Positions 5,501 through 35,589 of a DNA stretch of 35,589 bases are shown here, piece after piece; the stretch's first letter is position 1, and each line of letters starts with the position of its first letter. A program made the position numbers and the translations under genes. The notes beneath the pieces are model-generated. The model saw only the letters and a program-made list of their open reading frames with translations. It did not search any database and was not told where the DNA came from. Source of the DNA: a virus. The stretch lies in IMG/VR virus record IMGVR_UViG_3300007640_000103, positions 1 to 35,589 of that record. One strand, given 5' to 3'.

Positions 5501-6016
5501 ATGAGTAGAATAACTTTAACGCTTGCAAATACTATTGCAACACAATTAATGAAAAAGAAAAGAAATAAGGAGAATGCTTTAAAAGATAAACTAGGGGAAT
5601 ACGCATATCAGTGCCTAAAAACTAGAGTCCCTAAAGAAATTATCAGTCTTTATGAGAAAAAAGTAGGGAATGATTATTTCAAAACAAGTAATTATGGGTA
5701 TTTCACAGGGGTAGGCCTTGGTTATACTTCTATATACTTTACTCCTAATATACCTGTTAAACAAAATGGAGCTACACAAGTTACTGACAGGGAGGCTACT
5801 AAATTAGCTGATCTACAATATAAATGGAAAGAAGAAGTAAAAGCCAATAATGAGCTACAAAAAGAAATAGAAAGAACTTTAGTAGGTCTAAGAACGTATA
5901 AAAGAGTAAGAGAAGAGTTTAAAGAGGCAGGAAAATATTTACCAGTAGAGAATCTAGTAAAGAATACAACATCTTTAGTTGCTAATATAGACAAACTTAG
6001 AAATAAGTTGAAATGA
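5501..6016 (+). CDS. Hypothetical protein of the replication block (171 aa)
   Basis: The start at 5501 is chosen for its leader (cattaaaaattttaattATG). The frame extends eight codons further upstream only into the end of the polymerase gene. The N-terminal half is basic (TQLMKKKRNKENALKDKLGEYAY). The middle is aromatic and Gly-rich (GYFTGVGLGYTSIYF), and the C-terminal third is a coiled-coil helix (EEVKANNELQKEIERTL). It overlaps the helicase gene by 4 nt. I do not recognise it with confidence. Confidence 0.7.
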   Translation: MSRITLTLANTIATQLMKKKRNKENALKDKLGEYAYQCLKTRVPKEIISLYEKKVGNDYFKTSNYGYFTGVGLGYTSIYFTPNIPVKQNGATQVTDREATKLADLQYKWKEEVKANNELQKEIERTLVGLRTYKRVREEFKEAGKYLPVENLVKNTTSLVANIDKLRNKLK

Positions 6017-7137: not shown

Positions 7138-7330
7138 TGTCATGATACCATTAGTACAGGAAGAATATCCTGAAGCTACTAGTAATCAAGATATTGCGAA
7201 GTTAGTATCAGATATTTTCAAAGTGCAGTGTTCTTTTATGGACATAGCAGGATATACAGAATGTCAGTTTATAGCTAACCAGGACTACGAATTGGAAAGC
7301 AAACGTCAAGAGTATGGACATAGTTATTAA
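7088..7330 (+). CDS. Small hypothetical protein (80 aa)
   Basis: The start at 7088 follows a plausible leader (gtggaaaattATG), which makes a 50-nt overlap with the helicase. An internal ATG at 7142, just after the helicase stop, is an alternative that would give 62 residues. The protein is acidic and helical (DVMIPLVQEEYPEATSNQDIAKLVSDIFKV). No family was recognised. It overlaps the next gene by 17 nt. Confidence 0.6.
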   Translation: MENLKKSLEKSKVLELDVMIPLVQEEYPEATSNQDIAKLVSDIFKVQCSFMDIAGYTECQFIANQDYELESKRQEYGHSY

Positions 7331-7904
7331 CTTGAAAATACTTAGTGACCATAGCCTTACACCAAGTTGGTATGCGTACTTACTATGTTGCTACAAGGAG
7401 GAGCCATATCTATGTGCTAGTCCTGATAAACAAGAAGAGTATGCTATTGCTCTTGAAAAAGAGGGTTGGTGTAAAAGAGGACCAGAGAAAATCATTATCA
7501 GACAGAAGTTTCTAGATCTAATTAAAGACCTAGATACTTCTCCTGACAATGTAAACTCTTGGATTGAAGACTGGAGAGAACTTTGGCCTAAAGGGGTAAA
7601 ATCTGCAGGTAGACCTGTTAGAGGAGACAAGCAAGGAGTCATCAAAAAAATGATGGCATTCTGTGCTCAATACCCTGAATACACGAGAAGCCAGATATTT
7701 GAAGCTACTAAACTATATATATTTGATAAAAAATTAAATAATTTTACTTACATGACTTGTGCAGACTACTTTATTTATAAGGAAGTTAAACGAGGTGATA
7801 AAACATCTTTACTAGCTTCTTTGCTAGAGGATTTAGATGGGAAAGAAACACATTTAGAACAATTAGAAAAAGGCGGGGGTAGTTCCTGGCATAAAGAAGT
7901 ATAA
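7314..7904 (+). CDS. Hypothetical protein, possibly a helicase-loader-like factor (196 aa)
   Basis: The protein is helical and soluble. Residues about 15-80 contain a Trp/Tyr/Cys-rich helical region (WYAYLLCCYKEEPYLCAS). A basic linker (KSAGRPVRGDKQGVIKK) joins it to a second helical part (FTYMTCADYFIYKEVKRGDK) and an acidic tail. The two-part layout and the place between the SF2 and DnaB-like helicases recall phage replication-initiation or helicase-loading proteins, but no diagnostic motif is seen and that role is inference only. Confidence 0.7.
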   Translation: MDIVINLKILSDHSLTPSWYAYLLCCYKEEPYLCASPDKQEEYAIALEKEGWCKRGPEKIIIRQKFLDLIKDLDTSPDNVNSWIEDWRELWPKGVKSAGRPVRGDKQGVIKKMMAFCAQYPEYTRSQIFEATKLYIFDKKLNNFTYMTCADYFIYKEVKRGDKTSLLASLLEDLDGKETHLEQLEKGGGSSWHKEV

Positions 7905-7905
7905 T

Positions 7906-8283
7906 ATGAAATTAGAAAGAAAATACAGAAGGGATGTCCCTATAGAACAAATATTTGAGGAAAATAAGCATAGGGTAGTTATAGCAAGAAATGGTAATCT
8001 TCAACAAGAAGTAATGTTAATTGGGTACCATAGCCTAGGTAATATATTATTAGGAGTAAGGTTACCTTCTTGTGAAAGAGAAAACTTTAAACCAAGTGGA
8101 AGCAGGCACTCAGGTGATAAGGTTAACTTTCCTGAAGATTTTCCTATAGAAGGATTATTAAGAAGGGAAGATTATTTTGTTATGAGAAGAAGGCATGTTA
8201 CTAATCCCACTTCTAGGGAGGCTATGCCAGAATTTTGTAATAGAAAAAGTTTAGTAGAAGCCTTTCAAAATATGGAACTATGA
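7906..8283 (+). CDS. Small protein with shared C-terminal tail (125 aa)
   Basis: This is the first of five consecutive small genes. Its N-terminus (DVPIEQIFEENKHRVVIARNG) resembles that of the next protein (DVKDIFLRHKHEKFVVEGDG), so the two are probably paralogues. The C-terminus KSLVEAFQNMEL matches the family tail, and the stop overlaps the next start (ctATGA). Basic segments (RREDYFVMRRRHV) lie in the second half. Function unknown. Confidence 0.7.
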   Translation: MKLERKYRRDVPIEQIFEENKHRVVIARNGNLQQEVMLIGYHSLGNILLGVRLPSCERENFKPSGSRHSGDKVNFPEDFPIEGLLRREDYFVMRRRHVTNPTSREAMPEFCNRKSLVEAFQNMEL

Positions 8284-8663
8284 AAAGAGAAGTAGATGTA
8301 AAGGATATATTCTTAAGGCACAAACATGAAAAGTTTGTAGTTGAAGGAGATGGACAAAGAGCTGAAACTTATTACGTAATAGGTTATCTGCAGCATGAGC
8401 CTTCTAAAGGAAAACAAGAGGATGATGAACTTCTTGTATTCTGTTCTCCTTCACTTGGGCTTAGTTCTTATGAAGGAATAGGAGGGCCTTATAGTACTAA
8501 TGACGAATCAAATGATTCTGATGTAGTAGAAGAATTAGAAGATATGAACTGTAATGAAGATGGAGATTACACTTTCTATAGTGTAAGTGCTAAGCATATA
8601 AAAAACATATGTCCTCAATTCTTCAAATCAATACTACAGCAATTTAGAGAGTTAGAATTATGA
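8280..8663 (+). CDS. Small protein with shared C-terminal tail (127 aa)
   Basis: It is related at the N-terminus to the preceding protein (IF-x-x-x-KH-x-x-x-V-V). It then differs: the middle is acidic and low in complexity (NDESNDSDVVEELEDMNCNEDGD). The tail KSILQQFRELEL is written with different codons from the other tails, which argues that the peptide itself is conserved. It overlaps both neighbours by 4 nt. Function unknown. Confidence 0.7.
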   Translation: MKREVDVKDIFLRHKHEKFVVEGDGQRAETYYVIGYLQHEPSKGKQEDDELLVFCSPSLGLSSYEGIGGPYSTNDESNDSDVVEELEDMNCNEDGDYTFYSVSAKHIKNICPQFFKSILQQFRELEL

Positions 8664-8923
8664 GTACATTCAGAGCACAGCAGATAGTAGAAGTTAGAGA
8701 TTCAGACACAGATCCTTGGCTTAAAGCAGTTTTTCTAACTTATGGCACTATGTCAAATAAATTCCCTTTTCAGGTTAGAATGTTAGAAACAGGAAAATAC
8801 ACTAGGGAATTAATAAACGGGAATCCAACAATTTATACAGCTTTCATAGGAACTGAACTTCTATGGGCGCAATGTAGAGTTCCTAAGACAATATTAGAGC
8901 AATTTAAAGAAATGGAGTTATGA
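8660..8923 (+). CDS. SH3/KOW-like small protein with shared C-terminal tail (87 aa)
   Basis: The N-terminus QQIVEVRDSDTDPWLKAVFL matches the next protein (DKVLVRDEDTEAWVEAVFI), and so does the end (LLWAQCRVPKTILEQFKEMEL against LNWTQCKPYKTIKEQFEELVL), so the two are a tandem duplication. The pattern of short beta strands with a V-x-V-R-D turn fits an SH3-like or KOW-like barrel. It is coupled to both neighbours by ATGA overlaps. Function unknown; a small protein-interaction module is likely. Confidence 0.72.
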   Translation: MSTFRAQQIVEVRDSDTDPWLKAVFLTYGTMSNKFPFQVRMLETGKYTRELINGNPTIYTAFIGTELLWAQCRVPKTILEQFKEMEL

Positions 8924-9180
8924 GTGAATTTAAAACAGGAGATAAAGTACTAGTCAGAGATGAAGACACTGAAGCTTGGGTTGAAGCAGTTTTTATTCAA
9001 AACCATGAAACTGGAACAATTTCTACATTCACCTATAAGTTCCAGGTAGAGATGGTAAATGGAGGTACCTATCTTTATAAAGGGAGTTTAAAGTCGTATA
9101 GTAAGGAGGCTTTATTAAATTGGACTCAATGTAAACCATATAAAACAATTAAAGAACAATTTGAAGAATTAGTACTATGA
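8920..9180 (+). CDS. SH3/KOW-like small protein with shared C-terminal tail (86 aa)
   Basis: This is a paralogue of the preceding protein, with FKTGDKVLVRDEDTEAWVEA at the start, which is a classic KOW/SH3-like opening (GDxVxV). The WTQC motif is followed by the tail KTIKEQFEELVL. It overlaps both neighbours by 4 nt. The domain type suggests binding to RNA, DNA or a protein partner, but none is identifiable. Confidence 0.72.
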   Translation: MSEFKTGDKVLVRDEDTEAWVEAVFIQNHETGTISTFTYKFQVEMVNGGTYLYKGSLKSYSKEALLNWTQCKPYKTIKEQFEELVL

Positions 9181-9434
9181 GTGATAAAATAGAAGTAGGG
9201 ACCGTCTTAGTATGCCATACTGATTTAGTTATGAATGAAGGTAATGAAATAGAAGCAACTAAAGGAAAGGAGTATCCTGTTATTAGAACAAGGGGGAGTG
9301 AACTTACTATTCAGAATAATAGTAATAGAGCGCATAACTTTAATACAAATCCTAGTCGTAGCTCTTTCAGAAGCTGGTTTAAAGTAAAAGAAAAGAAATC
9401 CGTAATGGAACGGATAGCAGAAATAGAACTTTGA
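9177..9434 (+). CDS. Small protein with divergent shared tail (85 aa)
   Basis: This is the last of the five coupled small genes. Its beta-rich body (VGTVLVCHTDLVMNEGNEIEATKGKEYPVI) resembles a KOW or SH3-like barrel, as in the phage and bacterial families that begin V-G-x-x-V-x-C. The tail KSVMERIAEIEL is a looser form of the family tail. Its TGA overlaps the TTG start of the DnaB-like helicase (ctTTGA). Function unknown. Confidence 0.68.
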   Translation: MSDKIEVGTVLVCHTDLVMNEGNEIEATKGKEYPVIRTRGSELTIQNNSNRAHNFNTNPSRSSFRSWFKVKEKKSVMERIAEIEL

Positions 9435-10567
9435 GTAGTATATTTAATAGAGCTCTAGGTCAAATAGAGGATGGATTAAGTGGGAATAACGCAGGTATCC
9501 CTATTCCATTTACAAGACTTAGAAAGTACTTGCCTAACATCCAGCAAAAGACCTATTATTTAATAGGAGCAGGAACCAAAGTGGGTAAAACTTCTTTTGC
9601 TGATGATGTCTTTTTCTATGGAGCATATGATTACATAAAGAAATTGAAGGCAGAAGACAAATTAGATGGATTAGAATTAGACATTGATTATTTCTCTTAC
9701 GAAATTGATAGTGAAACTAAAATAATAAAAGGTATAGGTAGAAAACTATGGCATGAGTACGGGATAATTGCAGATGCTAACACAATATTATCCAGAGGAG
9801 AGAATCACTGCTCTGGAGAAATATATGGTTTAGTAAGAAGTTTCCGAGAATATTTTGAGGAAATGGAAGATGTAGTTACTATTCATGATATGCCAGATAA
9901 TCCTACGGGAATCTATAAGTACCTTAAAAAGAAAGCAGAAGATAATGGGCAAATTATTGAGAAAGATATCAACACAGATCCTAACGGGGATCCTGTAATG
10001 AGGTTTGATAGGTATATACCTAACAATCCTAAGAAATACTGGCTAGTGTTCATTGACCATATAGCACTGATGATGGAAGAAAGAGGTTTTAATACTAAGC
10101 AGAACATTGATAAAATGTCTCAATACTTAGTACTAATGAGGAATAACTATGGGATTAGTCCTATAGTAGTTCAGCAATTAGCTTTTGATTCTGAATCAGA
10201 TGAAAGACATAAGCAAGGTAGATTAACTCCTACTCTAAGAGACTTTGGAGATAGTAAGTATACTACCAGGGATGCTAATGTTATAATGGCTTTATTTAGT
10301 CCTTACAGGTATAAACTTGAGAGATTTCAAGGATATAATGTACAGGCATTAGGTAATTCATACAGAAATTTGGAAATCATTGAGAACAGAGACGGAGAGC
10401 CTAATGTAAACCTTGGACTTAATTTTATAGGACCATGTGGAACATTTAGAGAGCTTCCAAAATCTAGTGATATGACAGAAGGTATGAATCAATACGCAGC
10501 TAGCTTAGAAAATGTAAAATCAAAATATGTCAAAAATGGAAATTTATGGGAACTGAGGCAGGAGTGA
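9431..10567 (+). CDS. dnaB: DnaB-like replicative helicase
   Basis: This is a RecA-fold hexameric helicase expected to unwind the fork 5'-3' and interact with the primase at 12897. Walker A is GAGTKVGKTS (residues 46-55, K53) and Walker B is WLVFIDH. The C-terminal part has the usual LRDFGDSKYTTRDANVI region. At 378 aa it lacks the N-terminal DnaB domain and keeps the ATPase domain. The start is TTG at 9431: no in-frame ATG lies before the conserved core, and the 4-nt overlap matches the upstream genes. It overlaps the next gene by 22 nt. Confidence 0.88.
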   Translation: MSSIFNRALGQIEDGLSGNNAGIPIPFTRLRKYLPNIQQKTYYLIGAGTKVGKTSFADDVFFYGAYDYIKKLKAEDKLDGLELDIDYFSYEIDSETKIIKGIGRKLWHEYGIIADANTILSRGENHCSGEIYGLVRSFREYFEEMEDVVTIHDMPDNPTGIYKYLKKKAEDNGQIIEKDINTDPNGDPVMRFDRYIPNNPKKYWLVFIDHIALMMEERGFNTKQNIDKMSQYLVLMRNNYGISPIVVQQLAFDSESDERHKQGRLTPTLRDFGDSKYTTRDANVIMALFSPYRYKLERFQGYNVQALGNSYRNLEIIENRDGEPNVNLGLNFIGPCGTFRELPKSSDMTEGMNQYAASLENVKSKYVKNGNLWELRQE

Positions 10568-23057: not shown

Positions 23058-24785
23058 ATGGATGAAAATGTATTTAGGACAGCCTTTAGTGAAACTGTAT
23101 TTAAAAATAAGTACGCACATGAGGGGTGTGAAACTTGGGAGAAATTGTCTTCCACGTTAATTAGAGATGTCTGTAAAGAACATCTCAGTAAGGAGGAAAT
23201 AAAGAATCTTATTAGTCTACATTCAAATATGAAGTTTATCGCTGGTGGTAGATATTTATATTATGCAGGTAGAGCTAATAAATATTTTAATAATTGCTAC
23301 CTACTTAAAGCAGAAGAAGATAGTAGAGAAGATTGGGCTAATTTAAGTTGGAAATCAGAAAGTTGCCTTATGACAGGTGGTGGTATAGGTATTGACTATT
23401 CTATATATAGGCCTCATGGGGCTCTTATTAAGAAAACTGGTGGGACCGCTAGTGGGCCTATCCCTAAAATGAAGATGATTAATGAAATTGGAAGGAATGT
23501 CATGCAGGGTGGCTCCAGAAGAAGTGCTATTTATGCTTCTTTAAATTGGAGACATGGTGATGTTAGTCAATTCCTACACTCTAAAGATTGGTATAATATG
23601 CCTATTTCAGGAGCTTATGATAAAGATGGAGTTAATTTAACAATAGGGAATCTAAAAGAAAAGGATTTCAACTATCCAGCACCAATGGATATGACAAATA
23701 TTAGTATAAATTATGATAATAATTTTTTAGAAACAGTTTATGATTTACCTATAGAGCAAATTAAAGTTAATTTTGCCAATGAAGTAGATATGCCGATAAA
23801 ATATATACCAGCTGTATTTATAGATAATTGTAGACAAGCTCTGAAAACAGGAGAACCTGGTTTTAGTTTTAATTTCTTTGACAAAGTAAACGAGACATTA
23901 AGAAACGCTTGTACTGAGGTTACCTCTGAAGACGATAGTGATGTTTGCAACTTAGGTTCTTTGAATTTATCTAGATTTGAGAATATAGAGGAATTTAGGG
24001 AAGCAGTTAGGTTGGCTTCTAAATTTCTATTATGTGGCACTTTAAAAGCAAAATTACCTTACGCTAAAGTTTATGAGACAAGAGAAAAGAATAGAAGATT
24101 AGGTTTAGGATTAATGGGAATCCACGAATGGTTACTTCAAAGAAATTATGGCTATGAAGTAGTTCCAGAACTTAAAGAGTGGCTTACGGTATATAAAGAA
24201 GAATCAGAGTTAGCAGCTAATGAGTTAGCTACTAGTTTGAAGATAAGTAAACCAGTAGCTTATAGAGCAATAGCTCCTACAGGAACAATAGGTATCTTAG
24301 CAGGTACAACAACAGGTATTGAACCTCTATTTGCTGTAGCTTATAAAAGGCGGTACTTAAAAGGAGATAAGGCGTGGCATTATCAGTATGTTATTGATGG
24401 TACGGCTAAAATTTTGATTAATAAATACTCTTTAGATCCTGAGAAAATAGAAAGCGCTGTAGATTTATCAAATAATTATGAAAAAAGAATTAAATTTCAA
24501 GCAGATATACAAGATTATGTTGATATGAGTATATCCTCTACAATTAATTTAGCAAAGTGGGGAACAGAAACTAATAATGAAACTAAAGTAAATGATTTTG
24601 CTAAAACATTACTTAGTTACACCCATAGATTACGAGGATTTACCTGTTATCCAGATGGAAGTAGAGGGGGACAGCCCTTAACAGTGGTATCATATGCAGA
24701 GGCTAAGCAGCATGAAGGGAAAGAATTCAAAGAAGAATTCCATGATATATGCGATATATCTGGGGGTGGAACCTGTGGAGTATGA
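23058..24785 (+). CDS. nrdJ: Ribonucleotide reductase, class II (adenosylcobalamin-dependent)
   Basis: The enzyme reduces ribonucleotides to deoxyribonucleotides for phage DNA synthesis. The catalytic N-x-C-x-E is N283-C285-E287. The redox cysteine pair is C80 and C297 (DVCNLGS). The APTGTIGILAGTTTGIEPLF region and KRRYL are typical of NrdJ. The C-terminal cysteines C565 and C573 (CDISGGGTC) would be the re-reduction pair. There is no nrdB beside it, as expected for class II, so host-supplied vitamin B12 is needed. Length is 575 aa. It overlaps the HNH gene by 4 nt. Confidence 0.88.
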   Translation: MDENVFRTAFSETVFKNKYAHEGCETWEKLSSTLIRDVCKEHLSKEEIKNLISLHSNMKFIAGGRYLYYAGRANKYFNNCYLLKAEEDSREDWANLSWKSESCLMTGGGIGIDYSIYRPHGALIKKTGGTASGPIPKMKMINEIGRNVMQGGSRRSAIYASLNWRHGDVSQFLHSKDWYNMPISGAYDKDGVNLTIGNLKEKDFNYPAPMDMTNISINYDNNFLETVYDLPIEQIKVNFANEVDMPIKYIPAVFIDNCRQALKTGEPGFSFNFFDKVNETLRNACTEVTSEDDSDVCNLGSLNLSRFENIEEFREAVRLASKFLLCGTLKAKLPYAKVYETREKNRRLGLGLMGIHEWLLQRNYGYEVVPELKEWLTVYKEESELAANELATSLKISKPVAYRAIAPTGTIGILAGTTTGIEPLFAVAYKRRYLKGDKAWHYQYVIDGTAKILINKYSLDPEKIESAVDLSNNYEKRIKFQADIQDYVDMSISSTINLAKWGTETNNETKVNDFAKTLLSYTHRLRGFTCYPDGSRGGQPLTVVSYAEAKQHEGKEFKEEFHDICDISGGGTCGV

Positions 24786-25309
24786 GGAAGTATAATTATT
24801 TAAAGGAAAATGATACTTTTGGAAAATGGACAATTATTTCTGATGGGCCTATTATTAAAACTAAAGCAAGATCATTTCATTATTTTTGCAAATGTGCTTG
24901 CGGAGATACAAAACGATGGGTAAATGCAAGTGATTTAGTAAATAGCAGAAGCATCTGTTGTAATAAATGCTCTCAATATAGTGGACATAATGAACTCTCA
25001 TTATCCTTTTTTAATGTAATTAAGAAAGGAGCTATATCTAGAGGTTTAGAATTTAATATAACTATTGAAGCTATTTATCATTTATTAGAAAAGCAAGATT
25101 TTAAATGTAATTTATCGGGTATAGATATTAAATTACATAAGAGACATTACAAGAATAGAAAAGAACAAACTGCTTCATTAGATAGGATAGACTCATCTAA
25201 AGGCTACACGCTAGATAATGTGCAGTGGTTACATCGAGATATAAATATAATGAAAAATACACATAAACAAGAGTATTTTATTGAATTATGTAAGAAAGTA
25301 GCTGATTGA
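24782..25309 (+). CDS. HNH homing endonuclease (175 aa)
   Basis: A Cys-rich zinc-ribbon (CKCACG, then CCNKC) precedes a C-terminal HNH-like core with KCNLSGIDI, then ASLDRIDSSKGYTLDNVQWL and a final helix (DINIMKNTHKQEYFIELCKK), the usual pattern of free-standing phage HNH endonucleases. The start is ATG 24782, which overlaps the RNR stop (tATGA); the frame is open upstream only inside the RNR gene. It sits directly behind a conserved RNR gene, a common homing site. It is followed by a terminator. Confidence 0.8.
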   Translation: MRKYNYLKENDTFGKWTIISDGPIIKTKARSFHYFCKCACGDTKRWVNASDLVNSRSICCNKCSQYSGHNELSLSFFNVIKKGAISRGLEFNITIEAIYHLLEKQDFKCNLSGIDIKLHKRHYKNRKEQTASLDRIDSSKGYTLDNVQWLHRDINIMKNTHKQEYFIELCKKVAD

Positions 25310-25385: not shown

Positions 25386-25637
25386 ATGTATAAAGTAGGA
25401 GATGAAGTAATAATCACTAAAAGTGCTAATAACTGGGCCTCTGACATGGATGAATATGTAGGTAAAAAAGTTATTATTTCAAAGATTAGGAAATCTTTGT
25501 TTACTCAGGGAATTCTTATAGAATTTGAGGACTCTGGGAAGTGGGATTGGAGCTCTAATTGTAATCATTTTAAACATGCAGATCCAAATCATTCTAGAAA
25601 TGAAAATATTAGAAAATTTAAAGAATTAACATTATGA
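25386..25637 (+). CDS. SH3/KOW-like small protein with shared C-terminal tail (83 aa)
   Basis: It opens with YKVGDEVIITKSANNW, a KOW/SH3-like start, and ends NENIRKFKELTL, the tail shared with proteins at 1680 and 7906-9434. The stop overlaps the next start (ttATGA), as in the other tail genes. A seven-codon out-of-frame ORF (ATG at 25375, stop 25396-25398) starts after the A-rich leader and overlaps this start. Function unknown. Confidence 0.65.
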   Translation: MYKVGDEVIITKSANNWASDMDEYVGKKVIISKIRKSLFTQGILIEFEDSGKWDWSSNCNHFKHADPNHSRNENIRKFKELTL

Positions 25638-27056: not shown

Positions 27057-30000
27057 TTACCCGTTTTCTAAGAAAGCGAGAGCGTCCTCAACATTACTGT
27101 CCCATGCATTCCATATAGGAACTAAATCTGCAAAACGCTTTTTTATCTTAAGTTCTCCAGAACGTCTTCCTGATTTATATCTTTCTGTAGGATTAACTGT
27201 TTGTGCTAAAAAATCAAGACTTTCTTGTACAGAATTTAAGGACATCACAGGGTTTCTAAAAGTCCTAACAGCTTCACTAGGATTTATAAAAGAAGTAAGT
27301 TCTGAATACAACTTGCGAGAAAGATAAGCAGCATAAAGATCTTCTGGATCATCCCCTTCTTTAAAAGCTTTAGAAGCTAGCCACATTATAACTGCTACAG
27401 TAATTTCTAAAGTAGCTCTTTTAATTCTAGCTTTTTGTTCATCTGTTAATGTATTCCAGTATTGTGGAGCTGTTGCTAATTTAAGAGCAAGTAGGTCTTT
27501 ACCTATATTATATACGAATCTCATAGTTTCAGTATAAGTACCTTCTTCAAATTCTCCTGTCTCAGGATTGAAACTTCTAATAGCTAAATCTTTATCTTGA
27601 GGATTTATACTCATTCTACCTATTCCTCTAAATCTTTTTTGGACACCAGGGATAAGCCATCCACGCATCTGATATGTTAAGGCCCCAACAGCTGATCTTT
27701 TAAGAATAGATTTATTCTTACTATCATAGTTACCATAGAGGTCTCTATTAGTTCTTCTAATAAGTTTAGATATTATTCTCATATCAGAAAAACCTATTCC
27801 ACTAGTCTTCTCAGTAGAAACTACTGCTGGGTGAAAATCAAGTTTTCCATTTTCATCTTTTACATGTGCGGTATCGACTCCTATTGCTTTTTCTCTATCT
27901 TTAGTGGGTTTAAAGTCTTTATCCAGGAAGTCTCCATTTGCGTCCTTAACCTTTATGTTATCCAATACTGAGTACATTACAATAGATTGTACATTATGTT
28001 CCCCCATAGTGTTAAAGGCTATTAAAGAACCTGTTTGGGCTATTCTTTTAATTCTGGTATTCTCATTAAATTTCTTATCTAGGGGTTGGTGGTCAGACAT
28101 GGCATCGAATTTTCTAGCTAACAAATTAGTTCTGCTCTTAGGAACTCTTTGTCCTATATCAGCTACTATTTTACCATTAGCCATCTCTTTATAGTACTCT
28201 GCAGTACCATGGGCTCTATTTTTAATTCCAAATACTCCAGTATTTTTTCCAGCAGTTTCTATCCAAGAGACCGTACTACCATGTAATACGTTAGCCATCC
28301 CTGTTAACCCCTTTCCCGCTAAAGCTACCATGGAGGTATAACTTCTAATGGAGTTTAATACTTTAGCTATTCTAGGATCTCCTTCGGTTTGAATACCATA
28401 GACTCTATGTCTAATTAAAGAGTTTAACGCTAGTGCTAAATTAGAACCTGCTTCTTTAGCTTTTTTAGTTAGTGCTTCTCCTGTAGTACGATCTACCTTT
28501 AGGATTTGCTTAAAACTAGTTCGTTGCTCTATGTCTGCTTCGGATACCAAATCTTGTAAGCTCTGTAAAAATACAGCAGTTTCTGACTTAGCTTCAAAAT
28601 TTAATGAATTATGATAATCCATTAACATTAAACTTAAGACATCTTTACTTTGATCTTCAGGAGCTACATTGGTATTTCGGTAGTGTAAAGGAATAACCTC
28701 TCTTTCATTTCCTGAGGGACCTGTGATAACTTCTACAAAACTAGCTTCTTTATTTCTGGCTATCCTCCCCTCTATATCTCCAAACTCAGTATCATCAGCT
28801 CTTAACTTAAATTTATCTTTAAAACCCTCTACTGCAGTAGAAATTGCTCCAGAAGTATACATTCTTTCTAGATTATTCTTATTAACTCTAGGAAGGGCAA
28901 ACCCTAATTTAATAGGCACAATAGCATCTTTCTCCTTAACTAGTTTGGAAATGAATTGCTGCATCTCCCAAACAGGAGTACCCGCATAAGTTTCTCTAAA
29001 CTCTGTCCAGTTTAAAGATTTTTGATTTACTACAACATTCAAAGATTTACCTTCTTCATCCACAGCAAATATACTAGCAAATTGTTTTTCTGGATTACCA
29101 CTTTTCCCTACATAAGCCTCAAATCTTTTATAAATCTCATCAGCTTCCTCTTCTTTAGCAATAGTTTTTTGGTCTATAGCGTAATCTGCTGTATCTAAAG
29201 CCTCCACAGCCATAGACATAATATCGTGTCCCATATCCCTAGGATTTACAGCATAAGTCACTGCTGTAGACATGTCAACTGTCTTCTTAAGAATCCCTCT
29301 TACATATTCCTCAGTTTCATAGCTGATCTTATCAGCATGAATCATCATATAAGCTTCCACATATTCTTTTTGCTTCTTATCTAATTCAGTGCTTGATATT
29401 CTCTGCTTCCTAAGTTCAGGCTTCTTATTCATAATGAACTCTCTAGTAGCTTTATCTTTATAGTAAGCTTTAACTTTATCAAAATAGGGAGACCAAGTCT
29501 TAACATGATACTCTCTAGTAAGATCTATAGAATCTCGCTGTAATTTAGTTCTACTTTCATTAATTGTGTGAATAATCTCAAACTCTTTTTTAAGTTTTTC
29601 GTCTCCAGCAAAGTCTTCACTTAATTCATCTAATAAATTTAAAGATTTTAAATGCTCTCTGATTCTAACTAGTTCCTCTAAATTCAGCTCTCTTTCTTCC
29701 ACATTAACTCTCTGCTTAAGGTTTTTCATGTGCTTGACTAGACTATTAGTAGTAGTCTGAGCATGGATTAGATACTTATTGATAGCATAATCTGCTTCAA
29801 AATCATCTAGTTCTTTTAGCGTCTTCTTTAGCTCTCTAACTCTTTCTTTTAGGTCAGGGTTCTTCTTAACTACGTGAGACAGCCTTTGTAGCTTTCTTTT
29901 AAGGTCTCCCCTAGCCTTCTCTAGAAAGTCATTTTTTTGCTTAAGGTGTTTATCCACCTCCTCCAATTCAGGATTAGGCTGTGTCTCTACGATATCTTTT

Positions 30001-30143
30001 TTAGCTAATTCATTTAGGATACTTTGTGGGTATCCTTGATTAGCTATATATATATCCATAGCACGGTTACCGTCACCATCTACTGATTTTAATAAGAGTT
30101 CCCAAGGCTTATTAGTAATGGGACATTGCATTGCTGTTTTCAT
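27057..30143 (-). CDS. Large virion-associated protein, unrecognised (1,028 aa)
   Basis: It starts 1 nt after the stop of the RNA polymerase gene, so it is co-transcribed and probably acts with it. The N-terminal about 200 residues are highly charged and helical (HLKQKNDFLEKARGDLKRKL), probably coiled-coil. The middle is mixed. The last 150 residues include a hydrophobic helix (LEITVAVIMWLASKAF) and end in a Pro/Trp-rich segment. Size, position and late strand suggest a protein packed in the virion and ejected with the polymerase. No domain was recognised. Confidence 0.8.
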   Translation of the reverse strand: MKTAMQCPITNKPWELLLKSVDGDGNRAMDIYIANQGYPQSILNELAKKDIVETQPNPELEEVDKHLKQKNDFLEKARGDLKRKLQRLSHVVKKNPDLKERVRELKKTLKELDDFEADYAINKYLIHAQTTTNSLVKHMKNLKQRVNVEERELNLEELVRIREHLKSLNLLDELSEDFAGDEKLKKEFEIIHTINESRTKLQRDSIDLTREYHVKTWSPYFDKVKAYYKDKATREFIMNKKPELRKQRISSTELDKKQKEYVEAYMMIHADKISYETEEYVRGILKKTVDMSTAVTYAVNPRDMGHDIMSMAVEALDTADYAIDQKTIAKEEEADEIYKRFEAYVGKSGNPEKQFASIFAVDEEGKSLNVVVNQKSLNWTEFRETYAGTPVWEMQQFISKLVKEKDAIVPIKLGFALPRVNKNNLERMYTSGAISTAVEGFKDKFKLRADDTEFGDIEGRIARNKEASFVEVITGPSGNEREVIPLHYRNTNVAPEDQSKDVLSLMLMDYHNSLNFEAKSETAVFLQSLQDLVSEADIEQRTSFKQILKVDRTTGEALTKKAKEAGSNLALALNSLIRHRVYGIQTEGDPRIAKVLNSIRSYTSMVALAGKGLTGMANVLHGSTVSWIETAGKNTGVFGIKNRAHGTAEYYKEMANGKIVADIGQRVPKSRTNLLARKFDAMSDHQPLDKKFNENTRIKRIAQTGSLIAFNTMGEHNVQSIVMYSVLDNIKVKDANGDFLDKDFKPTKDREKAIGVDTAHVKDENGKLDFHPAVVSTEKTSGIGFSDMRIISKLIRRTNRDLYGNYDSKNKSILKRSAVGALTYQMRGWLIPGVQKRFRGIGRMSINPQDKDLAIRSFNPETGEFEEGTYTETMRFVYNIGKDLLALKLATAPQYWNTLTDEQKARIKRATLEITVAVIMWLASKAFKEGDDPEDLYAAYLSRKLYSELTSFINPSEAVRTFRNPVMSLNSVQESLDFLAQTVNPTERYKSGRRSGELKIKKRFADLVPIWNAWDSNVEDALAFLENG

Positions 30144-30144
30144 A

Positions 30145-33100
30145 TTAACCTATATTTAAACAAAAGTTTAATTGCTCAGCCACTTCCTCTGGACTGAGTT
30201 CAGATGTCATTTGGTCTTCTGGTGTCTTATACTTATCATAAGGAGCTACAGGTGTACTTAACTTCACATCAGCTCCTAATTTAGGTGTTTCAGGTGAGTT
30301 TAAGTTCAAGTATGTCTCTCTTGGTATCTGATTCTCTGCAAAGATACTATATTTTGAGGTACCAGTGAACTCTTTTATTTGAATAGGCCCTTTTGAGTAA
30401 CCTAATAAATTAGTTCTAAAATACACAGCTTCTCTATTAGCAGTATATCCTTGCAATTGAAATAACTTAGTAATGTATTTACCCTTAATTTTCTCCTTAG
30501 TAATTTCATCAGTTGCTTCTATTTGAATCTTAACAAAAGGTTTAAAAACAGGGCTTCCTGTAATAGAGACCCCAGCAATAAATTCTGTATGCTCTGCAGT
30601 TACTCCAAACCCAGTTTCCTTTTGGTCAAGAGCCACTAATCCTTGTGAGGTTTCCACTCTAAGTTCATTAGTTTGACTTGGAAATATCCGTGGAACTAAT
30701 TGATTATTCTTGCGGGCTATGTTTTTCATAATCCCATCGGTATGATGATCTAGAGCATGGATATCTTCCGCTAAAGTATCTTTAATTTGCTTTAGTTGTT
30801 CTCCAAAGTTCTTACTCATCAAGTAAGTCATTGGTATATGTTCATGGAAGGATCCTAACATAGATGAAAATCCTGATGTATGAAAAGCATATTGAATTAG
30901 ATCTTCTGCAAATGCAGTCTCCTTCTCTAAGAGTTCTTCCCAAGCATTGTAAAGTTCATCTTTAGTTCTTTTTACTGTATCATTCTGAGGAAGATATATT
31001 CTACCAGGTCCTCCTTTCTTTCCTTCTTCTAGCTGTAAAGCATTAATTAGTAGATTCTCTTTTAAATTAGGATTAGTTTTGATTTTCTTAAACCTATCCA
31101 TTATAGAGAAAGCTCTAGGAGTATCTTTGCCAAATTGAGCTCCTTCAGGAACACCATATATAATGTCTCGTAATTCTTCAGCAGTTAACCTGAACGCATC
31201 TGTAGTTGCTGCTACAGAAGTATAGATCTCATTAGCAAGAGTATCAGCTACTTTTTCATGATTCTCCTTTGTAACTAGAGTTAAATACCCAGAAGAAGCC
31301 GCCATATTCTGAATCAAAGATTTAGCTGCTGTAGTTGTATGTACAAATTCTTCCTGAAACATCTCCAATATAGTATCAACAGAGTTCTTAAAGTAAGTAC
31401 CTATCATCTTCTTATTATTCTCAGAGTATATAAGTGAATTTGCTTCTAGCTCCATTCCTAAGAAATTCTCTAGATTACCTATATCACCAGAGGCCAATGT
31501 TCTCTTCATTAAGTTCATAGCCAATTGAGCTCTATTCAGATTCTTAGTAGCTCCATTAACATCTACTTTACAAATAGTAATTAAGTCATTAAGCTTGTTA
31601 GACTCTTTTCTCCAACGTAAGAATTGAGTTAATATTTGTGCCTGTAGAGCTTCTTCAGCAGGAATTAAAGGAATTCCTTTATTCGTTTTACTTAGCACAG
31701 TTTGTAACTCATCGGTAGTAGTAGTTATTTCTGCCCCATAATCTGTTAATCCATTTTTTTCAAAGAAAAAGTATCCAGATTCATAATCCTGAACACCGTA
31801 CTTCTCGGCCATAGCTGTAAGTGGATCTATGTCAGCACTAAAAGTACTCTCTTTCTTTTCTACTGCATCAATATAATCTTTAATTATAGGTTGTCCCATA
31901 AATGAGAATACCCATTCTCTAGAGAATCCTGCTCTAATCAACATAAAGGCAGTACCAGCTGTCTGCTGATTAATATTCATTCTAGAGATAAAAGGATCTT
32001 TAGCTGCATCAACAATAGCATTCATTAACATACCTAAGGTATTCGCTATGTTATTACCATCTTCATCTACTAAGTTAGATAAAGAGGTGTCCCCATCAGC
32101 TGTAGGCTTACCTTTACCAAGGTAAGTACCCTTAAGATATAGATTTTCATGCAGAATTAAACTATGGTGAGATAAATGGTTAGCAATAGGACCTACTAAA
32201 TTCTTAGCACTATCAAAAGTATTCTTATTTTCCAATTGAGTAGTCCCAGAGAAGAAACCTAGATCAGAAGTACTCGCTACTCTAGGGTAGTGTTCTTCAG
32301 CAAACTTTAATAAGTAAGGATCATCTAGCGGTGCCATTACTTCTACATAAGCAGAAGGATGCATTAGCATATTACGCATTAACTCTAATCTTCTATTCTC
32401 TAAACCTTTTTTGTAATGGTCTCCTGTAATATTAGTGTCTTCAGGATTATACTTAATAGGGTAAATAGTTTTTGTGTCTTTATTAACTCCTAAATTAGGA
32501 AGAATAACAAAAGCTTTATCAATATCAAAGTCACTACCTGTTTTAGTAGTAATCTCAGAGAATGCTACCATTGTGTCTCCCATTTCTGGTGGTAAGAACC
32601 CAACTATTTCAATAGCATCATTAGAAGCTGCTGCCTGGTTAGGTATTCTATAAGAGATACCTGATAGAGCACCACTTTGAACCATAGCTTCTATTTCCTT
32701 ATGACTTAAGGATTTATAATCTTCATGTAGTTCTTGGAAAATTCTAACCATTTCACTATGAGGAAGTAACACTTGTGCAGCATTTACTTTATCCTCTGTC
32801 ATAGTCATAGGTTGTAATCTCTCTGCAGGATTCTTAAACCAAATGATGCCATCCTTAACAGCTTCATCTAGTTTCACCTCAGCTCCTACAAAGCCAAAAT
32901 CAGACATTTGAATAAAAGCTCCCCCCATTTGCTTAAGTCTAACTGCAGATTTAGTAAGCATGGCAGGAAGTTTATTCTCTACTTTTTGCCTATTAGGAAG
33001 AGCATCTAAATCGACTCCCTGATTAATAGCGTGTTGGGTATTATCTGAAACAGAATCCTTAATTTCCTTTTGAAGTCTTCTATTCACTTTACGAATTCCA

Positions 33101-35589
33101 GCCTCATCCTTTTCAAATCCAGTTTCTGGATCCCATCCTATGGCAGAAGTAAATTTACCAAGGCCTAAATCAGATAACTTAGAAATAACTGAATGATATT
33201 CTTCATAAATCTCTCTACCAGTTTTCTCATCCTCTGCGTATACCTCATCCATTTTAACAACAGATAAAGTGTTTTTAACAGTTTGGATCCCTACTATAGT
33301 CTCTTTAATCTGCTTACTAGATAAGTCTTGTTGTAAAAACAGATTCGTATAAGATAGCTTTACAGGTTTTAATAGAATGTCTCCTGAAGACTTCATGTTA
33401 CCTTCTTCAGTAGTGAGGGACGTAATCCCCATAGCCCCTACTTTCTTACCATCTAACACGATAACATGGTCTACTGGAGAAGTCTTTTTTGTAGGAAAAT
33501 GTCGGTCTAATATGAGACTATTAATTTTCTGCAGTGCTTTAGCAGCTTGTTGTTTTGTTCCGTGAGTACTATGAATATTACGCCAGTCTCTTCTACCAAC
33601 AACTACATATTGTCCTGCAAATTCTCCTGAGGAAGCTTCATACATTTTATAACCAAATAAATTTAAATAATTCTCTTCAGCTTCTATATCTCTACCCTGT
33701 ATTTGAGGAGAATATACTCCAACAGTGTCTTTAAGAAACATTTTAACTTTTCTGGCTTCATCAGAATTACTTCTTGGATTGTTTTTGTTATACAATTCAT
33801 CTAAAGAAGTAAATGTAAAATGTGTTCCTGCTCCTCCTCTATACTCTTGAGCAATATTACTTATATAGATAATCATATCTTCTAAAGGCAAATCAAAAAT
33901 TATTTCCTCTTTAAAATCTGCGAATTTTTTAGGGTACTTCTCTTGTAAAAAAGTAGCTATTTTAGAATCATCTTTAAATTCATTAAGTAACCAAGTACGT
34001 ACTACGGTATTAAATTTTTGGTTTAAGGCCCGCATAGGGTCAACAGGGCCCCCTTCCATAGCAAGTCGTAAATTATCTAACTCAGTTCCTTTTGTCATAA
34101 AAGGGAGTAATACTGCCTCAGACTGTTTATTATACTGCATACTCAATATACCACCTGTAGTAGGCATTAACTCAGCATGTACAGTCTTAAGAGGCTGTGC
34201 AAGTAATTTAACTTCGTTGTAGCCTAAAGATTCTTCGTTAATTGCTTTAATGTAAGCAGCTTCGTGCTCAGGATACCATTTTCCTAAACCTCGCATTCTT
34301 TCTCTATACGTGTCTAAAGTAATCCATGCCTGTGCATCAGTTCTATTTACCTTCTGATAAGGTTTAAATAGCTTATTAAGTGCAGTTTGGGAAATCCCTG
34401 TTCTGTCACTTATAATTTTAATGTTATCCTTGTTGCTAAAGAAGTCAGATGCTGCTTCTATATTTTCTACAGTAGCAGATGTGTAATAAGGTCTGACACC
34501 TTGATCACCTTCTTTAGTTCCTTTAAAGATACGGAAGTCAGCTCCAGAAGCAGCACTTACAGGAATTCTCTTCATAAAGTCCCCGAAATGATCTTGCTCT
34601 ATCCAAGGCAACTGTTGCCCTGCTTCATTGAATTTATATTTAACTTTATACAAAGCAGGGTCTCCATTAAATAACTTAGTCTGCTCAACATTTCCTATAA
34701 TAGAATTTAAAGTATAATCTGCTAAAGCAGCTATAACATCTCCAGTATAAGCATCATCAATAAACTCTTGGTCTAGAGTGTTGTTAACAATCTTATCTTT
34801 ATTTGTTTCTTTATCCTTTATAGTATTGATAATATTGAACTCTTTAGCTTTAGCTATATCCTTCTTGACTATACTCATAAAAGCATCAGCTATATATTCT
34901 CGTAGTTCAGGATTATTTATTCTCTCTGGAGTAAGTGCTTTAGGTTTTCCTTTAGAATCTACAAGGTCAAACTTAGCTAGATCTAGTCCAGGGAATAAGA
35001 AACTCTTAAAGGCATTACCTGGCTGTCTTTCTCCATTAGGACCTATAACATAGTGGTAGTATAATAACTGCTTATCTTCTGGGAGACCAGGCTGTACTAC
35101 ACCATTATCATCTGTATATCCATTTACCTGCTCATAAGCAACTTTCATCCTAGCTAGCTCATCTTGTAAGTATCCAGACAATATAGTCACTGGGCGGAGA
35201 TTCAATGCACTCTTCTTCATGTTATAAATAGGTGCCTGTGTAGTTGGGTCTATAGAGATATTAGCTCTTTCAACACTTCTACGACCTACTTTAATATAAC
35301 TTTGTTGTCCTTTATCTGCTTCGGCAAGTCCTATTAAGATACCGTGCTTAATTGTCTTAGTAATCTGATCATGTAACTGGTCTGCAGGTTTAAGATCAGA
35401 AGCCTTATGCCCTTTGTCTCCAGTCTCCATATAACGATAGTTACCATAAAGGCCTATCTCAATGGAGTCTCTAAACTCTTCAGCTCCTATTGGATCTGTT
35501 GGGTGTATTAACTTATTTAATATTAAAGAATTTTGATTATATCTTCCTTCTTTTAACATCTCTACCCCAGTTAAATCTCCTGACTTAAA
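30145..35589 (-). CDS. crAss-like virion RNA polymerase, C-terminal 1,814 residues (5' end outside window)
   Basis: The catalytic motif SDFDIDKAFVI is at 32532-32518 (D1010, D1012, D1014 counted from an internal ATG at 35559). DFDID is the Mg-binding signature of the single-polypeptide virion RNA polymerase of crAss-like phages, structurally known from Cellulophaga phage phi14:2 gp66. The frame stays open upstream of that ATG to the window edge, so the start lies outside. About 790 residues follow the motif. The enzyme is carried in the virion and would transcribe early genes in the host cell. The 1,028-aa gene follows 1 nt downstream. Confidence 0.9.
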   Translation of the reverse strand, partial: FKSGDLTGVEMLKEGRYNQNSLILNKLIHPTDPIGAEEFRDSIEIGLYGNYRYMETGDKGHKASDLKPADQLHDQITKTIKHGILIGLAEADKGQQSYIKVGRRSVERANISIDPTTQAPIYNMKKSALNLRPVTILSGYLQDELARMKVAYEQVNGYTDDNGVVQPGLPEDKQLLYYHYVIGPNGERQPGNAFKSFLFPGLDLAKFDLVDSKGKPKALTPERINNPELREYIADAFMSIVKKDIAKAKEFNIINTIKDKETNKDKIVNNTLDQEFIDDAYTGDVIAALADYTLNSIIGNVEQTKLFNGDPALYKVKYKFNEAGQQLPWIEQDHFGDFMKRIPVSAASGADFRIFKGTKEGDQGVRPYYTSATVENIEAASDFFSNKDNIKIISDRTGISQTALNKLFKPYQKVNRTDAQAWITLDTYRERMRGLGKWYPEHEAAYIKAINEESLGYNEVKLLAQPLKTVHAELMPTTGGILSMQYNKQSEAVLLPFMTKGTELDNLRLAMEGGPVDPMRALNQKFNTVVRTWLLNEFKDDSKIATFLQEKYPKKFADFKEEIIFDLPLEDMIIYISNIAQEYRGGAGTHFTFTSLDELYNKNNPRSNSDEARKVKMFLKDTVGVYSPQIQGRDIEAEENYLNLFGYKMYEASSGEFAGQYVVVGRRDWRNIHSTHGTKQQAAKALQKINSLILDRHFPTKKTSPVDHVIVLDGKKVGAMGITSLTTEEGNMKSSGDILLKPVKLSYTNLFLQQDLSSKQIKETIVGIQTVKNTLSVVKMDEVYAEDEKTGREIYEEYHSVISKLSDLGLGKFTSAIGWDPETGFEKDEAGIRKVNRRLQKEIKDSVSDNTQHAINQGVDLDALPNRQKVENKLPAMLTKSAVRLKQMGGAFIQMSDFGFVGAEVKLDEAVKDGIIWFKNPAERLQPMTMTEDKVNAAQVLLPHSEMVRIFQELHEDYKSLSHKEIEAMVQSGALSGISYRIPNQAAASNDAIEIVGFLPPEMGDTMVAFSEITTKTGSDFDIDKAFVILPNLGVNKDTKTIYPIKYNPEDTNITGDHYKKGLENRRLELMRNMLMHPSAYVEVMAPLDDPYLLKFAEEHYPRVASTSDLGFFSGTTQLENKNTFDSAKNLVGPIANHLSHHSLILHENLYLKGTYLGKGKPTADGDTSLSNLVDEDGNNIANTLGMLMNAIVDAAKDPFISRMNINQQTAGTAFMLIRAGFSREWVFSFMGQPIIKDYIDAVEKKESTFSADIDPLTAMAEKYGVQDYESGYFFFEKNGLTDYGAEITTTTDELQTVLSKTNKGIPLIPAEEALQAQILTQFLRWRKESNKLNDLITICKVDVNGATKNLNRAQLAMNLMKRTLASGDIGNLENFLGMELEANSLIYSENNKKMIGTYFKNSVDTILEMFQEEFVHTTTAAKSLIQNMAASSGYLTLVTKENHEKVADTLANEIYTSVAATTDAFRLTAEELRDIIYGVPEGAQFGKDTPRAFSIMDRFKKIKTNPNLKENLLINALQLEEGKKGGPGRIYLPQNDTVKRTKDELYNAWEELLEKETAFAEDLIQYAFHTSGFSSMLGSFHEHIPMTYLMSKNFGEQLKQIKDTLAEDIHALDHHTDGIMKNIARKNNQLVPRIFPSQTNELRVETSQGLVALDQKETGFGVTAEHTEFIAGVSITGSPVFKPFVKIQIEATDEITKEKIKGKYITKLFQLQGYTANREAVYFRTNLLGYSKGPIQIKEFTGTSKYSIFAENQIPRETYLNLNSPETPKLGADVKLSTPVAPYDKYKTPEDQMTSELSPEEVAEQLNFCLNIG

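Follow-up and report, generated by a model that had tools for sequence, protein, structure and literature searches.

A shared C-terminal tail on small accessory proteins of a crAss-like phage: a putative docking or address tag

The window analyzed here is the whole stretch of 35,589 nucleotides of the IMG/VR record IMGVR_UViG_3300007640_000103. DNA_pol_A and DnaB_C domains were found in its proteins, and its helicase matches crAss-like phages, phiCrAss001 among them. The regions 27057-30143 and 30145-35559 have homologues in a half-genome of phiCrAss001. With a predicted PolA-type polymerase, a DnaB-like helicase and giant RNA polymerase-associated proteins, the window phage meets the description of the crAss-like phages (Crassvirales).

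Seven small proteins of the window, all encoded on the + strand, had been described in an earlier note as ending in a common tail. All seven open reading frames and their ends were located. Five of them form an uninterrupted array: a 125-residue protein (7906-8283, tail KSLVEAFQNMEL at 8245-8283), a 127-residue protein (8280-8663, tail KSILQQFRELEL at 8625-8663), an 87-residue protein (8660-8923, tail KTILEQFKEMEL at 8885-8923), an 86-residue protein (8920-9180, tail KTIKEQFEELVL at 9142-9180) and an 85-residue protein (9177-9434, tail KSVMERIAEIEL at 9396-9434). Directly 5' of the array lies the gene of a conserved 196-residue protein (7314-7904, +), and directly 3' that of the DnaB-like helicase (9431-10567, +), which bears no tail. 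In the relatives L004 and L005 these two flanking genes directly adjoin, with no accessory gene between them. The other two tailed proteins are a 91-residue protein (1680-1955, tail KTLEEKFKEMEL at 1917-1955) and an 83-residue protein with a K-x-G-D-x-V motif (25386-25637, divergent tail NENIRKFKELTL at 25599-25637). The tail genes are located among or beside replication genes. All seven tail stops of the window share 4 bp with the start that follows (ATGA, as at 1955; TTGA at 9434, where the helicase starts with TTG). By eye, the frame at 24749-25309 resembles an HNH homing endonuclease and overlaps the end of a ribonucleotide-reductase-like gene (23058-24785).

Further copies were found in contig IMGVR 3300034418_006516 (hereafter L036), which is 99-100% identical to the window over shared genes and reaches 3992 bp further left (window position = L036 position minus 3992). 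It encodes five more tailed proteins to the left of the window, at L036 273-758, 755-1054, 1119-1418, 2033-2272 and 2269-2598. Window and L036 together give a total of at least 12 tails in the window phage. Between two of these tailed genes, a 23-codon open reading frame (MNQEELESAFNVIELQRELDIEL, L036 1051-1122) overlaps the upstream stop by 4 bp and ends in -D-I-E-L.

The tail consists of the last 12 residues, near-identical on at least 12 small proteins of one crAss-like phage, and its position is strictly C-terminal. The consensus K-[ST]-[ILV]-x-[EQ]-x-[FI]-x-[EN]-[MLI]-x-L is clear in six of the seven window proteins. In leave-one-out profile scoring, 11 of the 12 tails exceeded every one of the 10,854 internal 12-mers of the window. 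The tail ending at 25637 has no K-[ST] and is outscored by three internal 12-mers; it is a divergent, weaker member. When 783 open reading frames from related loci were scored with a profile of the last 13 residues, nothing comparable was seen at internal positions. Ungapped scores between pairs of C-termini reached 45 in the window and 54 in L036, while in a random-end control of about 40,000 pairs a score of 28 was reached by one pair only. Nearly all high scores among 40,258 within-locus pairs of C-termini, taken from 241 phage loci, came from the window phage. The shared tail is confirmed as real, far beyond chance, and the earlier description of seven similar endings is borne out by both frame ends and profile scores, with 25637 as the weaker case.

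Tail composition was also analyzed. A capping box [ST]-x-x-[EQ] is present in 11 of 12 tails, and all 12 end in hydrophobic-x-hydrophobic-COOH. The helical hydrophobic moment is 0.37, against 0.30 +/- 0.15 for shuffled tails; as this difference is not significant, amphipathicity was dropped as proof of a docking helix. A membrane helix was dropped as well, because the tails are not cationic (net charge mostly 0 to -1).

The earlier note had also argued that codon differences between copies point to selection on the peptide. Pooled over the 12 tails, pS was 0.60 and pN 0.31, whereas in the 12 codons just upstream both classes were saturated (0.67 and 0.72). Within the tail, conservation is highest at second codon positions, whereas synonymous sites approach saturation. 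Peptide-level selection on the tail is supported by these substitution patterns. The argument from codons was nevertheless too simple: at positions with the same residue, identical codons numbered 235 against 181 +/- 15 predicted from codon usage. This excess indicates that the tail copies share DNA ancestry.

The overlaps at the tail stops might suggest that an RNA or DNA sequence is kept at the junction itself, for translational coupling, for reinitiation or as a cassette recombination joint. Tail and 4-bp overlap are indeed strongly associated in the window phage, where 9 of 11 tail genes have the overlap but only 2 of 27 other genes do (P = 1.6e-5). Moreover, a terminal L or I is found at 51 of 123 other 4-bp stop/start overlaps in relatives, so that this last residue may partly reflect the junction. 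However, all of these 123 overlaps are tail-less, and conversely two tails, ending at L036 1418 and L006 5259, are closed by a TAA stop without overlap. The conserved columns cease at the stop codon, with no common sequence past the next start except one weak position (+17), and the pattern over codon positions is that of a peptide. The stop-start overlap therefore does not wholly explain the conservation, as the earlier note had allowed it might. The RNA junction was rejected as sole cause on the tail-less overlaps, the overlap-less tails and pN below pS, and we regard a junction effect as very improbable.

The bodies that carry the tail fall into several families, some of them mutually unrelated. 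The statement that the bodies differ thus holds in part. The proteins starting at 8660 and 8920 are 45% identical, those at 7906 and 8280 form a second related pair (29% identical), and a K-x-G-D-x-V start is common to several related tailed proteins. No significant match to Pfam or PHROGs was obtained for the tailed proteins of the window, and among the other tailed proteins only a nucleotidyltransferase-like one gave a noteworthy match. The model of the protein at 8920-9180, built from 6 sequences only (pLDDT 77), shows a Tudor/SH3-like barrel (about residues 1-73) followed by a C-terminal helix made by the tail (77-85), where the last residues have a mean pLDDT of 57. Tudor domains are the nearest structures to this model, which superimposes on that of PHF1 with a Z of 6.8 and 1.7 A over 53 residues. 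Most bodies may be SH3/Tudor-like small barrels. The possible likeness of 8920-9180 to phage small barrel proteins of this kind lies in the modelled fold of its body; it differs in that its tail is outside the aligned core, and Foldseek with this model returned no significant match (E > 0.001). The model of the protein at 7906 was unusable (pLDDT 48).

One body is of another kind. The 161-residue protein at L036 273-758 matches phrog_33731, annotated as of unknown function, and we take it to be minimal nucleotidyltransferase-like from its GS-x-S...D-x-D-L pattern. Its homologue in the Cellulophaga phages phi17:2 and phi4:1 is tail-less: the last residue of the homologue aligns with position 149 of 161, immediately ahead of the KSILQRINELEL tail. 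Thus, the tail is an added piece, at least in this protein.

These data bear on whether the tail needs any tag function. By paralogy or module shuffling, a C-terminal helix that belongs to a single expanded family of small barrels could have been copied by recombination to a few other genes and kept mainly for folding. The related pairs, the K-x-G-D-x-V proteins and the common DNA ancestry seen in the codons all agree with such an origin. On the other hand, the tails are far better conserved than the bodies (in one example, a tail score of 53 against a body score of 29), only in the tail does pN fall well below pS, and a complete homologue of the nucleotidyltransferase-like body exists that has no tail. 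We consider such an origin without a tag function unlikely.

For a strictly C-terminal motif conserved at the peptide level, grafted onto unrelated bodies and patchy and lineage-specific in its occurrence, we propose that the last 12 residues are a short helical docking or address tag, a putative assignment to which we give about an even chance. The tail would form a free helix, capped by [ST]-x-x-[EQ] at its start and closed by hydrophobic-x-hydrophobic-COOH at its end. Small accessory proteins from a rapidly changing repertoire would have acquired it as an addition, and it would direct all of them to a single shared partner or site within the infected cell. The helix would bind this partner, which is probably phage-made or specific to a host lineage, since the tail variants cluster by phage. 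Against a docking tag stand the kinship of several bodies, which makes part of the sharing plain paralogy, the excess of identical codons, the unexceptional hydrophobic moment and the low model confidence in the last residues.

The same uniform hydrophobic ending, present in 12 of 12 tails, could serve as a C-terminal degron or protease handle, giving the accessory proteins a common short lifetime. An ssrA-like LAA end is found in none of the 12, and to our knowledge known C-terminal degrons need less than a long conserved helix. We judge this reading highly unlikely. Short terminal or flexible peptides that dock many unrelated proteins onto a hub are also known, such as the clamp-binding QLxLF motif and the acidic C-tail of SSB. 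The tails described here differ from both: a QLxLF or QxLxLF-type pattern occurs in none of the 12, and they are not of the acidic DxPF type.

The distribution of the tail was assessed in related phages. The sister phages L006/L010 and L011 have helicases 81% identical to each other and 68-72% identical to that of the window. Near the equivalent replication genes, their accessory genes end in the variants STVIERIKNITL, DTLVAIKNMTL, DTIRNIKEMSL and LELIKQMTLD and in a weak LTKHLTL. Against the window-phage profile, the first four lie at or beyond about 1 in 1,600 internal 12-mers, and LTKHLTL alone is not significant. In one pair of homologues from L006 and L011, 33% identical overall, the variant end is kept (...LTKHLTL / ...LIKQMTLD). 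The tail ends in -E-L in the window phage and in -T-L or -S-L in the sisters; ends that differ in this way between lineages fit either gene conversion or a tail that co-evolves with a partner peculiar to each lineage.

No comparable set of tails was found in nine longer relatives taken in full (35 to 93 kb; G002, G006-G009, G011-G014), some of which are near-complete. In one of them, G007, a single structural-region protein ends in EPETVSQAIKNINL. Absence from homologues, which by the earlier note would count against a tag, is therefore only part of the picture: near-complete relatives lack the tail, but L006 and L011 keep variants of it, one pair at 33% identity. Homologues of the tail genes were absent from the compared relatives, so that these accessory genes turn over fast while the tag is kept. 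Searching the proteins at 8660 and 8920 by tblastn in 50,697 phage records gave zero matches. A further multi-tail phage turned up neither in IMG/VR, scanned with two DNA patterns, nor in bacterial genomes, scanned with one; this absence is weak, as the spacing of the second IMG/VR pattern misses the L011 tails. A search for the partner by gene co-occurrence, in which L006 and L011 were represented by short fragments, yielded no gene that distinguishes phages with the tail from those without it. No description of such a tag was found in the open-access literature.

Altogether, the sequence comparisons indicate that the tail is a real, unusual and lineage-specific shared C-terminal tag, whose function we infer. 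Its closest precedent, by analogy only, is the capsid-targeting sequence of T4, which is N-terminal, unlike the tail. The likeness is that of a short peptide on diverse proteins, here 12 tails on several body families. By this analogy the tail might be a virion packaging signal that brings accessory proteins into the prohead, from which they would be injected with the DNA. The internal proteins of T4 are likewise diverse, fast-evolving small accessory proteins that share only a short, constant terminal peptide (PMC3012670), and phiCrAss001 virions contain cargo proteins (PMC10172136). The T4 sequence serves encapsidation, however, whereas the tailed genes sit among replication genes, and two structural contigs, G016 (26.8 kb) and G017 (38 kb), proved to be without tails.

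Mimicry of a scaffold end seemed promising from some relatives, in which the gene between those of the portal and the major capsid protein (MCP), the usual place of the scaffold, has a product with a tail-like helix at its end (L104 ...MKDALNELEL, L090 ...EIGEALKNITF). It failed in contigs tentatively assigned to the tail-bearing phages by shared metagenome and protein identity. In L093, which is probably the window phage, the end ...GESLKTITFK does not exceed chance once the choice of offset is allowed for; the ends in L097 and L101, of the L006/L011 group, are ...GSLPSSFGS and ...SIPSTFGRS. Scaffold mimicry, as one form of the packaging signal suggested in the earlier note, is thus not supported, and packaging by another route appears improbable. 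In several crAss-like relatives the scaffold-position protein ends in a tail-like short helix (L041 16552-17727, -; L104, end at 2248; L090, end at 5972).

Within the docking or address tag proposed above, we tentatively envisage a C-terminal address code of the phage's own, a version that seems possible but rather doubtful. One phage-made hub (a replication or transcription site, a compartment or the virion interior) would recruit at least a dozen rapidly swapped host-takeover or anti-defence proteins, all bearing a constant 12-residue tail in co-evolution with the hub. Should the tail be an address tag, many accessory proteins of crAss-like phages, as yet unknown, could be approached through it; a peptide pull-down could reveal their common target, and further members would be recognisable by the tail sequence alone. 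Such a tag would also give a very different order of phages its own, C-terminal equivalent of the signal on T4 internal proteins.

Other shared endings were observed among the loci compared. Cysteine-rich C-termini (...DCNC, ...ENCNC, ...CKCN, ...CNCN) occur on structural-strand proteins of several relatives (L050 18127-18774 and 19504-19938, -; L041 10370-10933 and 11447-12025, -; L058 5683-6303 and 9957-10529, -). Three neighbouring small proteins of another phage have KT[IV]T[VI]YE or EKTVYE as their ending (L080 158-1143; L083 6416-7401, -). Since each stop there shares 8 bp with the start that follows (ATGAATAA), the junction may account for these last residues. Adjacent small proteins with ends like LGRKSLLGK, LGKKSILGT or INKKTLLGQ are found at L185 9416-9968 (-), L193 11561-12113 (-) and L207 2762-3174. 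Finally, two adjacent proteins bear acidic tails of the kind found in single-stranded DNA-binding proteins, VDIPF/DDVPF or DDELF/EESLF (L074 10344-11556; L038 4876-5920, -).
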